In this document: positions 15,786 through 20,515 of the stretch, one piece after another
Numbering within the stretch: the first letter of the stretch is position 1
Layout of the letters: every line of letters begins with the position of its first letter
Assembly (NCBI RefSeq): GCF_001571385.1
Contig: NZ_BCNW01000001.1
Span: 1,674,001-1,738,000 of the forward strand
Reading direction: 5' to 3'
Length of the DNA stretch: 64,000 nucleotides
Origin: Methanofollis ethanolicus
GTDB lineage: Archaea > Halobacteriota > Methanomicrobia > Methanomicrobiales > Methanofollaceae
Notes under the pieces: model-generated
The model's database searches: none
What the model saw: only the letters and a program-made list of their open reading frames with translations
Told to the model about the DNA's origin: nothing
Made by a program: the position numbers and the translations under genes

Positions 15786-15811
15786 TACAGGGCGGCATGA
15801 TTGAGTCTGGT

Positions 15812-16729
15812 ATGTCTGCAAATGTTACCCTGTCCGTCCCCGCCGACGTTCCCGGCACGGCACGGGAGACCTATATCGAGAACTACAGGACAATCACCCA
15901 CGGATCCGGTCGCCTCATGCTCTTTGCCGGCGACCAGAAGATCGAGCACCTCAACGACGACTTCTTCGGCGAGGGCATCCACGAGGACGACGCCGACCCG
16001 GAGCACCTCTTCAGGATCGCGCAGAAGGGGCGCATCGGCGTCTTCGCAACCCAGCTCGGCCTGATCACCCGGTACGGCCGGGACTATCCCGACGTCCCGT
16101 ACCTGGTCAAGCTCAACTCCAAGACCCACCTGGTGAAGACCGCCCAGAAAGACCCGTACAGCCCGATGATCTCGACAGTCGGGCAGGTCGTTGCCTTCCG
16201 CAACCAGACCGGCCTGAAAGTCCTCGGCGTCGGCTACACGATCTATCTCGGCTCCGAGTATGAGTCCGAGATGATGAGGGAAGCGGCCCAGATCATCTTC
16301 GAGGCCCACCAGCACGGCCTCGTCACCGTCCTCTGGATCTACCCCCGCGGTGCGGCGGTGAAGGACGAGAAGGACCCTCACCTCATTGCCGGCGCCACCG
16401 GCGTCGCTGCCTGCCTCGGCTCCGACTTCGTCAAGGTGAACTCCCCGAAGAAGGAAGGCGCGGTCTCGGCCGAACTCCTGCGCGAGGTGACCCGTGCCGC
16501 AGGCAGGACGCAGGTCGTCTGCGCCGGCGGGTCGAGCATCGACGAGACGAAGTTCCTCAAGGAACTGTACGACCAGATCCATACCGGCGGTGCGTCAGGC
16601 AATGCAACAGGCCGGAACATCCACCAGAAGTCCCTCGACGAGGCGGTCAGGATGTGCAACGCCATCTCGGCCATCACCATCGACAATGCACCCCTTGAGG
16701 ACGCCGTCGCGCTCCTGAAGGGCAACTGA
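15812..16729 (+). CDS. Archaeal class I fructose-bisphosphate aldolase family protein
   Basis: About 305 residues of the archaeal class I aldolase (DhnA/FbaB) family: condensation or cleavage of fructose 1,6-bisphosphate through a Schiff-base lysine. Seen: FAGDQKIEHLND near the N-terminus (the family substrate loop), VTVLWIYPRGAAVKDEKDP, GSDFVKVNSPKK with the likely catalytic Lys in strand 6, VVCAGGSSID (phosphate-binding) and ASGNATGRNIHQKS. The alternative start at 15797 adds five residues; the TATA position favours this one. Pathway logic pairs it with the FBPase at 18173, now separated from it by a transposon. A related 2-amino-dideoxyheptulosonate synthase is a less likely alternative. 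Confidence 0.85.
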   Translation: MSANVTLSVPADVPGTARETYIENYRTITHGSGRLMLFAGDQKIEHLNDDFFGEGIHEDDADPEHLFRIAQKGRIGVFATQLGLITRYGRDYPDVPYLVKLNSKTHLVKTAQKDPYSPMISTVGQVVAFRNQTGLKVLGVGYTIYLGSEYESEMMREAAQIIFEAHQHGLVTVLWIYPRGAAVKDEKDPHLIAGATGVAACLGSDFVKVNSPKKEGAVSAELLREVTRAAGRTQVVCAGGSSIDETKFLKELYDQIHTGGASGNATGRNIHQKSLDEAVRMCNAISAITIDNAPLEDAVALLKGN

Positions 16730-16771: not shown

Positions 16772-16990
16772 TGTGAACTACCCCGGCCTGAAGGGCGGGG
16801 CTTCCTGCTTCACCCTCCCTCTACTGAGGCAAGTCCACAGGCTCAACGGTGCGTTCCGCACCTGATACCCCGACAAGGTTCTGTTCTTGCAGGGCAAATT
16901 TCTTGATATTGACCGCCGCGTTGACATCGCGGTCGTGATGAATACCACAATCAGGACAGATCCACTCCCTGTCAGAGAGGGTAAGATCCT
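16772..16990 (-). ncRNA. Predicted omega (right-end) RNA of TnpB copy 2
   Basis: In known TnpB systems the guide RNA scaffold comes from the 3' end of tnpB and the right end of the element, with the guide taken from flanking DNA. Here the region covers the last codons of tnpB, the short 3' segment and the terminal hairpin. The guide would then come from bases just left of 16772, in the 3' flank of the aldolase gene. Bounds are approximate and expression is unproven. Confidence 0.4.
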
Positions 16991-17984
16991 GTTTGAGATA
17001 CCCGCATTTGCTACAAATCTTCGAGGAGGGATCGAATCTCCCGATCTTCAGGAGAGTCTTCCCGTACTTCCGACACGTGTATTCCAGCATCGTGAAGAAC
17101 ATACTCCACGAAACATCTCCGAACCCCTGTGCCAGATGATGATTCTTCATCATCCCGCCAACATTCAACGATTCCACTGCAATGGCTTGGTTCTCGCTCA
17201 CAACTCGAAAAGAGATTTTGTGCAGGAAATCGTTTCTCTGGTTGGCGATCTTTTCATGGCACCGGGCAAGTCTCAGGATCGCCTTCTCCCGGTTCTTCGA
17301 CCCTTTCACCTTCCGCGACACCCTCTGCTGTAACACCTTCAACCGCTGGAGGGAAGTCTTCAGGTATCGGGGGTTCTCGATCTTCTCTCCCGTAGAGAGG
17401 GTTGCAAAGTCCTTCAGCCCGACATCGATCCCAAGAGTAGTGTTCAGAGAGAAGGGTGCAGGTGTCGGTTCGGGTTTCCCGTCATCGACAAGGATACTGA
17501 CGAACCATTTTCCTGTCGATGTTACAGAGACGGTGGCATACTTCATCTTCCCGGTGAAGACACGGTGGAAGACAGTTCTAATCTTGCTGATCTTCGGGAG
17601 TTTGATCCATCTCTGATCGAAGTCCACGGAGTAACTCTGAGGCACCTGAAAGGACTGTACGGGATTCTTCTTTGACTTGAACCGTGGAAATCCTTTCTTC
17701 TCACGGAAGAACCGGGTGAAAGCGTTGTCGAGATTTTTGTTGGCACTCTGGAGAGACTGAGAGTTCACTTCCTTGAGCCACGGATGTTCTTCCTTAAGGG
17801 CGGGAAGACGGTTGTTCAGGTCGAAACAGGAGAGTTTTTGACCTTCCTGCTCGTATGCCCGGATCTTCTGCTCCAGAGAATGGTTATACACAAACCGGCA
17901 GGCATGGATGTGATTCATGAGGAGCGTAACCTGCTCCTCTGAAGGATACATCCGATACTTGCAGGCTTGAAGCATACAAGGCAT
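16821..17984 (-). CDS. tnpB: TnpB RNA-guided nuclease (IS605 OrfB), intact
   Basis: 387 residues, complete. The N-terminal helix-turn-helix (CKYRMYPSEEQVTLLMNHIH) is followed by the OrfB core. All RuvC acidic residues are in place: Asp in GIDVGLKDFATLS (about 190), Glu in AIAVESLNVGG (about 275) and Asp in HHDRDVNAAVN (about 357). The zinc ribbon CSKCGYL...CPDCG is complete. TnpB cuts DNA matching its omega RNA next to a transposon-adjacent motif and helps keep the element. Copy 1 upstream is a diverged, broken relative in the same orientation. Confidence 0.93.
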   Translation of the reverse strand: MPCMLQACKYRMYPSEEQVTLLMNHIHACRFVYNHSLEQKIRAYEQEGQKLSCFDLNNRLPALKEEHPWLKEVNSQSLQSANKNLDNAFTRFFREKKGFPRFKSKKNPVQSFQVPQSYSVDFDQRWIKLPKISKIRTVFHRVFTGKMKYATVSVTSTGKWFVSILVDDGKPEPTPAPFSLNTTLGIDVGLKDFATLSTGEKIENPRYLKTSLQRLKVLQQRVSRKVKGSKNREKAILRLARCHEKIANQRNDFLHKISFRVVSENQAIAVESLNVGGMMKNHHLAQGFGDVSWSMFFTMLEYTCRKYGKTLLKIGRFDPSSKICSKCGYLKQDLTLSDREWICPDCGIHHDRDVNAAVNIKKFALQEQNLVGVSGAERTVEPVDLPQ

Positions 17985-18070
17985 TATAGAATTTACAACA
18001 ATATATTGTTGGGGTAATCGCGATCACCAAAAGGGGTTCCGCTGTCATCCCCGGCCTAAAGGCCGGGGTC

Positions 18071-18120
18071 TGTGCACTTCTGAAGGAAGTGCGCATGTGC
18101 ACCTCTCTGAGAGGTGCACA
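18071..18120. promoter_or_regulatory. Two stacked palindromes before fbp
   Basis: TGTGCACTTC-TGAAG-GAAGTGCGCA (18071-18095, nearly perfect) is directly followed by TGTGCACCTCTC-T-GAGAGGTGCACA (18096-18120, perfect 12-bp arms). Both contain GTGCAC. The block lies inside the left end of TnpB element copy 2 and about 53 bases upstream of fbp; copy 1 lacks it. Confidence 0.7.
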
Positions 18121-18172
18121 CTTCCCGCTCCACCCCTTTACCCCGCAAGATAGAGAATTTCGGAGACTGAAG

Positions 18173-19078
18173 ATGACGACACTGCAAGACTATCTCCGGG
18201 CGGCAGGCTGCGAAGCCGGGCTGCAGGAACTCATCGAACTCATCGCACGGCAGGCGGGCCCGATCAGGGAGGCCTTCATCACCCATCAGTCCTATGCCGG
18301 GAGCGAGAACGTCTACGGCGAGCAGCAGGCGGCGATGGACACCTGGGCCGACGAACGGATCATCGGGGCGGCCCGCGACTCCGGCCTCGTGCGCGAACTC
18401 TCCTCCGAGGAACAGGAGGAGGTGCTCACCTTCGCCGGGGCGAAGCAGGACTATGCCATCGTGATGGACCCGATGGACGGGTCGTCCCTGATCCAGACGA
18501 ACCTCGCGGTCGGGACGATCATCGGGATCTTCGGCAACGGGTCTGTGCGACAGAAGGGACGAAACCTGAAGGCCGCGCTCTACATGCTGTACGGCCCGAT
18601 GACGACCCTCACCCTGACAATCGGCAAGGGCGTGCAGATCTTTGCGATGGACCATGAGGGTGTCTACCGCCTCCTCGAAGCCGATGTCAGGATGCCGGAG
18701 GGCACCCTCTACGGCACCGGCGGGAAGAGGCCTGAGTGGACGGCGCCGCATACCACATTCATCGAGACGATCGAGAAAGAGGGGGCGAAAGTCCGCTACA
18801 CCGGGTCCTATGTGGCCGACTTCCACCAGATCCTCAAGTATGGCGGGATCTACTGCTACCCTGCCTTGAAGGACAGACCGAAGGGCAAACTCCGCCTGAT
18901 GTACGAGGCCGTCCCGGTCGGCTTCATCGCCGAGCAGGCCGGAGGCGCGATCACCGACGGCACCCGGAACCTCCTCGACGTGGAACCCGACGACCCGCAC
19001 CAGCGCACCCCGATCTATGTCGGGTCCGCAGGCATGATCCGGACGGTAAAGGAGATCTTCGGCAGGACGCACGCATGA
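18173..19078 (+). CDS. fbp: Class I fructose-1,6-bisphosphatase
   Basis: 301 residues. Hydrolyses fructose 1,6-bisphosphate to fructose 6-phosphate in gluconeogenesis. Seen: the metal-binding Glu/Asp region MDPMDGSSLIQTNLAVGTI (DPxDGSS motif) near residue 100, ENVYGEQQAAMD, a sugar-binding YTGSYVADFHQILKYGG, and the C-terminal EQAGGAITDGTRNLLD. Length and motifs match class I enzymes. The ATG at 18173 starts MTTLQDYLRA; upstream codons in the same frame lie in the transposon end. The gene ends in an ATGA overlap with the next gene. Confidence 0.93.
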   Translation: MTTLQDYLRAAGCEAGLQELIELIARQAGPIREAFITHQSYAGSENVYGEQQAAMDTWADERIIGAARDSGLVRELSSEEQEEVLTFAGAKQDYAIVMDPMDGSSLIQTNLAVGTIIGIFGNGSVRQKGRNLKAALYMLYGPMTTLTLTIGKGVQIFAMDHEGVYRLLEADVRMPEGTLYGTGGKRPEWTAPHTTFIETIEKEGAKVRYTGSYVADFHQILKYGGIYCYPALKDRPKGKLRLMYEAVPVGFIAEQAGGAITDGTRNLLDVEPDDPHQRTPIYVGSAGMIRTVKEIFGRTHA

Positions 19079-19851
19079 CCGCCGTCACGGTGGTGACGGC
19101 AGACATCGGCGGATTCCCGGCCGGCATGAAGGCGCACCCTCTCGTCATCGAGAGGGCCGCACAGGTGCTCAAGAAAGAGCACGGCGGCCTCATCGTCGAT
19201 TCCTTCGTGACCAGAGTGGGCGGAAGGCTTGCCTGCATCTTCACTCACCAGGACGACCCGCGGATCGCAGACCTTGTCGACCGTGTGATGGTGGAGTGCC
19301 GCACCCTTGCAACAGGTTTCGGCCTCGTCGGCCACGGTGAGGCAGGGAGAGCGGACCTTTCCGTCGAGAGCGGGGAGGGCGTGCTCGTCTTCCTCTCCAG
19401 CGGGGCGGGGGGAGGGGCCTGGAGCGAGGTGCTCGCCCGTATCTTCGCCGACCCCTACACGACGCCCGCCCTGGTGGACGACCCCCTCCTCCACCGGGGG
19501 TTTGCCTTCACCTGCAGTGACGGCGGGGTCTACCCCACGCCGTCCGGCGCCTACGACCTCCTCCAACACATCCGCGGCGGCGCCTCCGTCGTGAAGGTTG
19601 AGGGACCGGAGAAGACCGTCGCCACGGCCGGCACAGGCGCCGACCCGGCCCTCCTCCTCGGTACCGGCCGTGGGTGCCCGCCGGTCGCCGGCGTCCTCGC
19701 CGCCGTCGCGGCCTCAGGCCTCATGCCGGTCAGCCTCTGCGACGCCGTACCGGTCTGTACAAAAGCCGTCTGCCTGGGATTCGGGGTCCATGACGGCATG
19801 CTCATCGGCCCGGCAGACCTCTTCGACGACCCGGCCTTCACCCCGCGGTGA
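19075..19851 (+). CDS. Short FBP aldolase/phosphatase-like protein, likely catalytically degenerate
   Basis: 258 residues, recognisably like the archaeal bifunctional FBP aldolase/phosphatase (class V) but much shorter than its usual 365-400. Shared: VVTADIGGFPAGMKAHP, FADPYTTPALVDDPLLHRGF, YDLLQHI, LMPVSLCDA and GPADLFDDPAF. Aligned by eye with the canonical family, the metal-binding Asp-Asp of xVGDDLxLIxTH is GR (RVGGRLACIFTH), the His of GHHxVHP is lost, the Schiff-base region GKYVGKDDP reads TAGTGADP, and the C-terminal tail with the catalytic Tyr is missing. It is translationally coupled to fbp, so a regulatory role is plausible. Note the alternative: a functional enzyme with altered chemistry. 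Confidence 0.75.
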   Translation: MTAVTVVTADIGGFPAGMKAHPLVIERAAQVLKKEHGGLIVDSFVTRVGGRLACIFTHQDDPRIADLVDRVMVECRTLATGFGLVGHGEAGRADLSVESGEGVLVFLSSGAGGGAWSEVLARIFADPYTTPALVDDPLLHRGFAFTCSDGGVYPTPSGAYDLLQHIRGGASVVKVEGPEKTVATAGTGADPALLLGTGRGCPPVAGVLAAVAASGLMPVSLCDAVPVCTKAVCLGFGVHDGMLIGPADLFDDPAFTPR

Positions 19852-19931: not shown

Positions 19932-20168
19932 ATGGTCAACAGTATTGTTCTGCCAGTGAAAAAAGTTTTTTCGCTCGTTGATTCAAAGATTAGCGTAGAG
20001 ATCAAGGACGAGGGCCGGAAGCTGCAGGGAAGACTCGTTGCCGTGGACGAGCACCTGAACCTGCACATGGACGAGACGATCGAGTTCACGGGCGACCAGC
20101 GGGGACGCAACCTCGGCACCGTCGTCATCAGGGGGAACAATATTCTTACGATCGCACCCCTTATCTGA
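19932..20168 (+). CDS. Sm-like archaeal RNA-binding protein
   Basis: 78 residues with both Sm motifs: LQGRLVAVDEHLNLHMDET (Sm1) and the Sm2 strand GTVVIRGNNILTIAPL. Archaeal Sm proteins form heptameric rings that bind U-rich RNA. Length and motifs are typical. The ATG follows a purine-poor AT-rich leader beginning about 80 bases after the FBPA/P-like gene. Its stop overlaps the start of the next gene (TGATG), so the two are co-translated. Confidence 0.92.
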   Translation: MVNSIVLPVKKVFSLVDSKISVEIKDEGRKLQGRLVAVDEHLNLHMDETIEFTGDQRGRNLGTVVIRGNNILTIAPLI

Positions 20169-20515
20169 TGGACATGCCATCTGTTGAAGATGAGGCCCTG
20201 AGGATCATCCAGTCGAGGCAGGAAGGAGTGCTCCAGAGTGAACTCTGGAAACTCCTCAACATCGACAGCCGGAAATGCTCGCGGGTCGTCAAGAAACTGA
20301 GCGATGCCGGCCTCATCGATCGCCTCGAGTACAGAGAGGAGGGGCTCAAGACATACCTGCTGAAGGCACGGCAGCAGGCGGTCGATCCCTCTCTCCTGAT
20401 GGCAGGAGAAGAGTTGATCCCCTGTATCGGTTGTGACCTGGACTGCAATGTGGAGCAGTGTTCGGTCCTTCTTGACTGGATGTACGAACTGGCAATCAGC
20501 GAAGTGAACGAGTAA
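20168..20515 (+). CDS. Winged-helix protein with C-terminal Cys cluster
   Basis: 115 residues. The N-terminal 75 form a winged helix resembling MarR/Lrp and Rpc34-type domains (ALRIIQSRQEGVLQSELWKL, SRVVKKLSDAGLIDRLEYRE). The C-terminal part carries CIGCDLDCNVEQC, a four-Cys cluster that may bind zinc or an Fe-S cluster. It is probably a transcription factor or an RNA polymerase-associated factor. Coupling to the Sm protein gene suggests an RNA-related or housekeeping role, but the function is not known. Confidence 0.7.
   Translation: MDMPSVEDEALRIIQSRQEGVLQSELWKLLNIDSRKCSRVVKKLSDAGLIDRLEYREEGLKTYLLKARQQAVDPSLLMAGEELIPCIGCDLDCNVEQCSVLLDWMYELAISEVNE

Follow-up and report, generated by a model that had tools for sequence, protein, structure and literature searches.

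A catalytically dead fructose-1,6-bisphosphate aldolase/phosphatase beside class I fructose-1,6-bisphosphatase in Methanofollis ethanolicus and its relatives, and its possible role as a non-catalytic partner

Why would a methanogen keep an enzyme that has lost its active site, in overlap with the enzyme that may have replaced it? The question is raised by two genes of Methanofollis ethanolicus lying in a window of 64,000 nucleotides (contig NZ_BCNW01000001.1, positions 1,674,001 to 1,738,000; assembly GCF_001571385.1), where both a class I fructose-1,6-bisphosphatase (FBPase) open reading frame (ORF) and, sharing its last four bases (ATGA), a short ORF related to the bifunctional fructose-1,6-bisphosphate (FBP) aldolase/phosphatase (FBPA/P) are present, as an earlier sequence-only reading had described. 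That reading took the short protein for a pseudoenzyme, a view upheld by the loss of 10 of 11 catalytic positions, a fold predicted to be kept, purifying selection and genus-wide retention. We give about an even chance to the displaced FBPA/P having been kept as a co-translated, non-catalytic FBPase subunit that stabilises, assembles or tunes the active enzyme.

Residue content and predicted fold

The short protein matched PF01950 with an E value of 2.6e-26 (93 bits, gathering cut-off 25) and the FBPA/P entries 3t2g/1umg of the Protein Data Bank (PDB) with E about 1e-21. An AlphaFold2 model made from a 25-row alignment (pLDDT 92.9, pTM 0.92) superposed over 258/258 residues on the Thermoproteus enzyme 3t2g (residues 2–329; 1.9 A, Z 32), and a Foldseek search with this model was in agreement (1umg, E 4.7e-22). 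The core FBPA/P fold is thereby predicted to be retained, consistent with the claim that the family scaffold is kept, and even the 215-residue form of Methanocorpusculum was still predicted with a pLDDT of 80.

Alignment with 14 canonical Methanomicrobiales FBPA/P proteins, in which 11 metal, Schiff-base and catalytic positions were scored, indicated that only the equivalent of Asp11 was kept, together with 65 of 123 other aligned family-invariant positions. Three changes already read from the sequence, namely loss of the His of the GHHxVHP motif (His18, now Gly17), a metal Asp pair reading GR (Asp52-Asp53, now codons 50–51) and an altered Schiff-base region (Lys232 to Gly), were not reversed by this alignment, and losses beyond that list were Gln95 to Glu, Asp132-Lys133 to Ser-Gly, Asp233 to Ala and deletion of Tyr229. 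Among Asp11, His18, Asp52, Asp53, Gln95, Asp132 and Asp233, which we take to be the Mg ligands from the Sulfolobus and Thermoproteus FBPA/P structures, Asp11 alone remains, and the Schiff-base Lys232 and both Tyr229 and Tyr348 are gone. Lys232 and Tyr348 have been named essential (PMC5080403). The protein scored 89.8 bits against the NCBIfam equivalog NF041126, for which the cut-off is 520. Loss of catalysis is evident from these residues; by homology the short protein descends from FBPA/P, but as an enzyme it falls outside that group.

The claim that about 100 C-terminal residues including the catalytic Tyr are absent held in part: Tyr348 is deleted and approximately 108 residues are missing relative to a canonical relative, but only 49 of these are C-terminal. 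The rest fall in internal gaps of 15 residues (directly after the Gln95-Asp96 position), 12 (directly before Lys232, including Tyr229) and 13, plus smaller ones, and a simple C-terminal truncation was rejected, since internal gaps account for over half of what is missing. The short gene is the sole PF01950 gene in the genome, which excludes a second, functional FBPA/P elsewhere. FBPase is likewise the sole PF00316 gene over the cut-off, and its invariant residues E79, E80, D99, D102 and E245 are all present in the alignment, with motif roles that we take to be those of the pig enzyme.

Selection, distribution and recurrence

Intact, uninterrupted orthologues were found in 12/12 Methanofollis genomes searched, answering the question of conservation in sister species, and the start offset was -4 in every Methanofollis locus with both genes on one contig. 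Pairwise ratios of nonsynonymous to synonymous substitution (dN/dS; NG86, own script) for the damaged gene were 0.21–0.51 in Methanofollis, 0.12–0.13 in Methanocalculus and 0.05–0.25 in Methanocorpusculum, with values of about 0.03–0.35 for the paired FBPases. Purifying selection on the short gene is evident from these ratios. A chance ORF or wrong frame was rejected, as the two other same-strand frames gave dN/dS >1; the antisense frame sharing codon phase gave 0.21–0.47, as is to be expected from that sharing, and is without homology support. In substitution-only neutral simulations the ORF stayed open in approximately 1% of runs at K 0.25 and 0.1% at K 0.5 for Methanocalculus and Methanocorpusculum, which strongly supports selection there; for Methanofollis it stayed open in 1.5% of runs at K 0.9 and in 15% at K 0.25, so that in this GC-rich genus an open ORF alone is a weak test and the support is weak.

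The survey covered 100 genomes of Methanomicrobiales and 80 named loci. Lineages without this FBPase clade keep a canonical FBPA/P, and all 14 canonical proteins without an adjacent FBPase keep 11/11 catalytic positions. In lineages with this clade, FBPase is followed directly 3' by a damaged FBPA/P (Methanofollis, Methanocalculus, Methanocorpusculum, G068, L123 and L134/136/137) or by a partly damaged one (L049/068/099), or FBPA/P is absent, the one exception being L129, in which a canonical FBPA/P lies 67 bases behind FBPase. The damaged forms include those of several Methanoregulaceae-type lineages, spacing to FBPase is tight in most damaged lineages, and no surveyed genome without this FBPase yielded a damaged copy. 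Selective loss of catalytic positions is best seen, by residue counts, in L123, which is full-length but dead, keeping 1/11 catalytic positions against 132/173 others (p 1e-5). L123, L129, L134, L136 and L137 represent operons of a DhnA-type aldolase gene, FBPase and FBPA/P in metagenome-assembled genomes (MAGs) labelled Methanoregulaceae/Methanospirillum. The proteins of L049/L068/L099 are full-length with changes D11E/S, H18T/N, Q95N/H/R and Y348P/F/H, retain Lys232 and are possibly partially active or single-function intermediates; the genomes of L049 and L068 (G027, G070) also carry ADP-dependent phosphofructokinase (ADP-PFK). The idea that any class I FBPase eliminates FBPA/P was rejected, since Methanoregula-type genomes keep a canonical FBPA/P with a distant class I FBPase (41–46%) two genes away, indicating that it takes more than redundancy with just any FBPase.

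In some eleven Methanocorpusculum loci, examined with 4 kb of flanking sequence at either end, the dead gene, here in its shortest form, stays next to FBPase, while the DhnA gene and two genes that elsewhere follow FBPA/P, encoding LSm-like and winged helix-turn-helix (wHTH)-like proteins, were not detected within these 4 kb. This persistence, and the lack of damaged copies in genomes without this FBPase, suggest that the association across lineages likely points to FBPase as the partner.

In the FBPase tree, L129 falls in a clade with 100/100 support together with L119/L123 and the dead, shortened L134/136/137. A canonical protein within a clade holding two differently damaged lineages indicates that inactivation recurred. 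Joint recovery of lost catalytic residues is improbable, so that no fewer than four separate inactivations are needed to account for these sequences: in L123, in L134/136/137, in L049/068/099 and in the Methanofollis/Methanocalculus/Methanocorpusculum/G068 forms. The count rests on the FBPase tree together with the residues that L129 and L049/L068/L099 still have, and speaks against a single origin shared by every damaged form; the deep branching of the FBPA/P tree is unreliable because long branches meet. Subclades agree between the two trees, indicating that the pair was inherited together. Related class I FBPases were also observed on contigs labelled Nanohaloarchaea, Aenigmatarchaeota, DPANN and Altiarchaeota (L141, L142, L144, L146, L149, L152), and may reflect transfer or misbinning.

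Features of the locus are collected below. The LSm-like and wHTH-like names derive from sequence and conservation across loci, not from a family scan. The DhnA-type aldolase gene adjoins FBPase in most Methanofollis by synteny, and its product is likely the replacement for the aldolase half of FBPA/P. A solo IS200/IS605 TnpB element lies between these two genes in M. ethanolicus (approximately 16772–18150; TnpB 16821–17984, minus strand); the site is empty in the close relatives G009 and G010, in which some 85 bases separate them.

Table 1. Coordinates within the window of the gene pair, its diagnostic codons and its neighbours
Feature	Position	Strand	Evidence
Short FBPA/P homologue, catalytically dead, 258 aa	19075..19851	+	PF01950, ligand table, AlphaFold2 fold
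Class I FBPase, 301 aa, catalytic motifs intact	18173..19078	+	PF00316/PF18913
ATGA start/stop overlap, predicted translational coupling	19075..19078	+	sequence
Asp10 codon (canonical Asp11), sole retained ligand	19102..19104	+	alignment
Gly17 codon in place of ligand His18	19123..19125	+	alignment
Gly50-Arg51 codons in place of metal pair Asp52-Asp53	19222..19227	+	alignment
DhnA-type class I FBP aldolase, upstream	15797..16729	+	NF005321 537 bits, PF01791
LSm-like protein, ancestral downstream neighbour of FBPA/P	19932..20168	+	sequence, cross-locus conservation/synteny
wHTH-like protein, ancestral downstream neighbour of FBPA/P	20168..20515	+	sequence, cross-locus conservation/synteny

Role of the retained protein

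The proposed course of events would begin with the organism's own FBPA/P at its ancestral position, which the gene still occupies, upstream of the LSm and wHTH genes. Arrival of class I FBPase and the DhnA aldolase would have taken over both half reactions of gluconeogenesis and made it redundant, after which metal binding, the Schiff-base lysine, the catalytic tyrosines and active-site loops would have been lost and the core fold kept. Ribosomes ending FBPase would reinitiate at ATGA to produce the short protein from the same message, and the two chains would assemble, the dead protein stabilising, oligomerising or modulating FBPase. The dead gene is genetically linked to its proposed partner across lineages, as a regulatory subunit would be, and its product is without catalytic residues but selected and, by prediction, folded, as would be a pseudoenzyme subunit. 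Sequestration or allosteric control of FBPase, as the earlier reading suggested, is plausible and would fit the predicted coupling, the repeated retention of both genes and the persistence of the pair where its surroundings changed. The broader proposal, of at least four conversions in Methanomicrobiales from catalyst to partner of an unrelated replacement, each giving a two-protein holoenzyme of class I FBPase and dead FBPA/P, we hold tentatively, at somewhat below even chances. We know of no such holoenzyme from anywhere else, and no report of such an FBPA/P pseudoenzyme was found in the open-access literature searched.

Several observations weigh against a subunit role. Most Methanomicrobiaceae have FBPase and no FBPA/P at all, the order being FBPase-LSm-wHTH with FBPA/P cleanly deleted and no whole-genome PF01950 match where searched, indicating that FBPase does not in general require the partner. 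Ancestral gene position accounts for part of the adjacency. ADP-PFK was not found in Methanofollis or Methanocorpusculaceae, and a PFK/FBPase futile cycle, rejected on this ground, does not explain a need for control. Finally, Methanofollis dN/dS (up to 0.5) is clearly relaxed relative to canonical FBPA/P (0.03–0.09), although values well below 1 indicate that constraint is real.

Raised dN/dS could instead mark a slowly decaying, functionless remnant, redundant since the arrival of FBPase, and the deletion in Methanomicrobiaceae, the progressive shortening to 215 aa in Methanocorpusculum and an apparent pseudogene in L107 fit this course. Such decay is nevertheless improbable: all Methanofollis genomes have an intact ORF, each lineage gives a dN/dS well under 1, the fold is confidently predicted and the neutral simulations for Methanocalculus and Methanocorpusculum speak against it, the Methanofollis runs being a weak test. 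The L107 contig (4300–5700), from a MAG labelled Thermoplasmata, carries DhnA-FBPase followed by a broken FBPA/P whose N-terminal 70 residues are canonical and whose C-terminal end is in a different frame; it looks like a pseudogene, with assembly error or a misbinned contig as other explanations.

A neofunctionalised protein, in which the old fold binds another ligand or partner or catalyses something else, would lie beside FBPase merely by ancestral position. The gene was already at the locus (FBPA/P-LSm-wHTH synteny), the fold is predicted to be intact and a physical tie to FBPase is something we infer, all of which suit this explanation; it is rather unlikely in our judgement, as the Methanocorpusculum gene keeps its place after other neighbours have gone, and tight spacing and the want of damaged copies apart from this FBPase in the survey also speak for a tie. 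Were catalysis lost and a sugar phosphate still bound by remaining residues, the protein might act as a ligand sensor passing a signal to FBPase: the Methanofollis protein retains a few invariant residues, among them Asp11, the His22 position and the Asp286 equivalent, and regulatory proteins such as HisZ bind an effector (PMC9734150). Loops that flank the active site, among them the carrier of Tyr229 and the 256–268 loop, have been deleted, which makes this quite improbable. Family homology is all that favours continued FBP aldolase or phosphatase activity from a rearranged site, which we reject as highly improbable with 10/11 metal and catalytic residues absent.

The lineages offer a graded series from enzyme to non-enzyme, running from canonical L129, adjacent to FBPase, through partly damaged, full-length L049/L068/L099 and dead, full-length L123 to loop-deleted forms (Methanofollis, L134 type, Methanocalculus) and the minimal 215 aa protein of Methanocorpusculum, with outright gene loss or a pseudogene as alternative ends. 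Retention of a displaced enzyme as a subunit of its replacement becomes testable. For annotation, reconstructions of gluconeogenesis in methanogens should leave such genes out of the tally of functional FBPA/P.

Comparison with known systems

The short protein resembles bifunctional FBPA/P (PF01950; PDB 1umg, 3r1m, 3t2b-3t2g) in homology, predicted core fold and orthologous locus, and differs in being without 10/11 catalytic/metal residues, three loops and the C-terminal segment. Trypanosomatid prozymes, dead paralogues that activate AdoMetDC or deoxyhypusine synthase, likewise present a dead enzyme as partner of an active one, as proposed here, but are homologous to that partner, whereas Pfam places FBPA/P and class I FBPase in separate families. 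The fold of HisZ is unrelated to that of HisG, and this pair would be the nearest precedent of action, comparable in principle, for a dead FBPA/P with FBPase. HisZ, itself without catalytic power, is the regulatory subunit of short-form ATP phosphoribosyltransferase, where it activates HisG and mediates inhibition by histidine (PMC9734150). The archaeal pair differs in families and pathway and in that the dead FBPA/P, whose interaction with FBPase we infer, preceded its proposed partner as the enzyme for the reaction.
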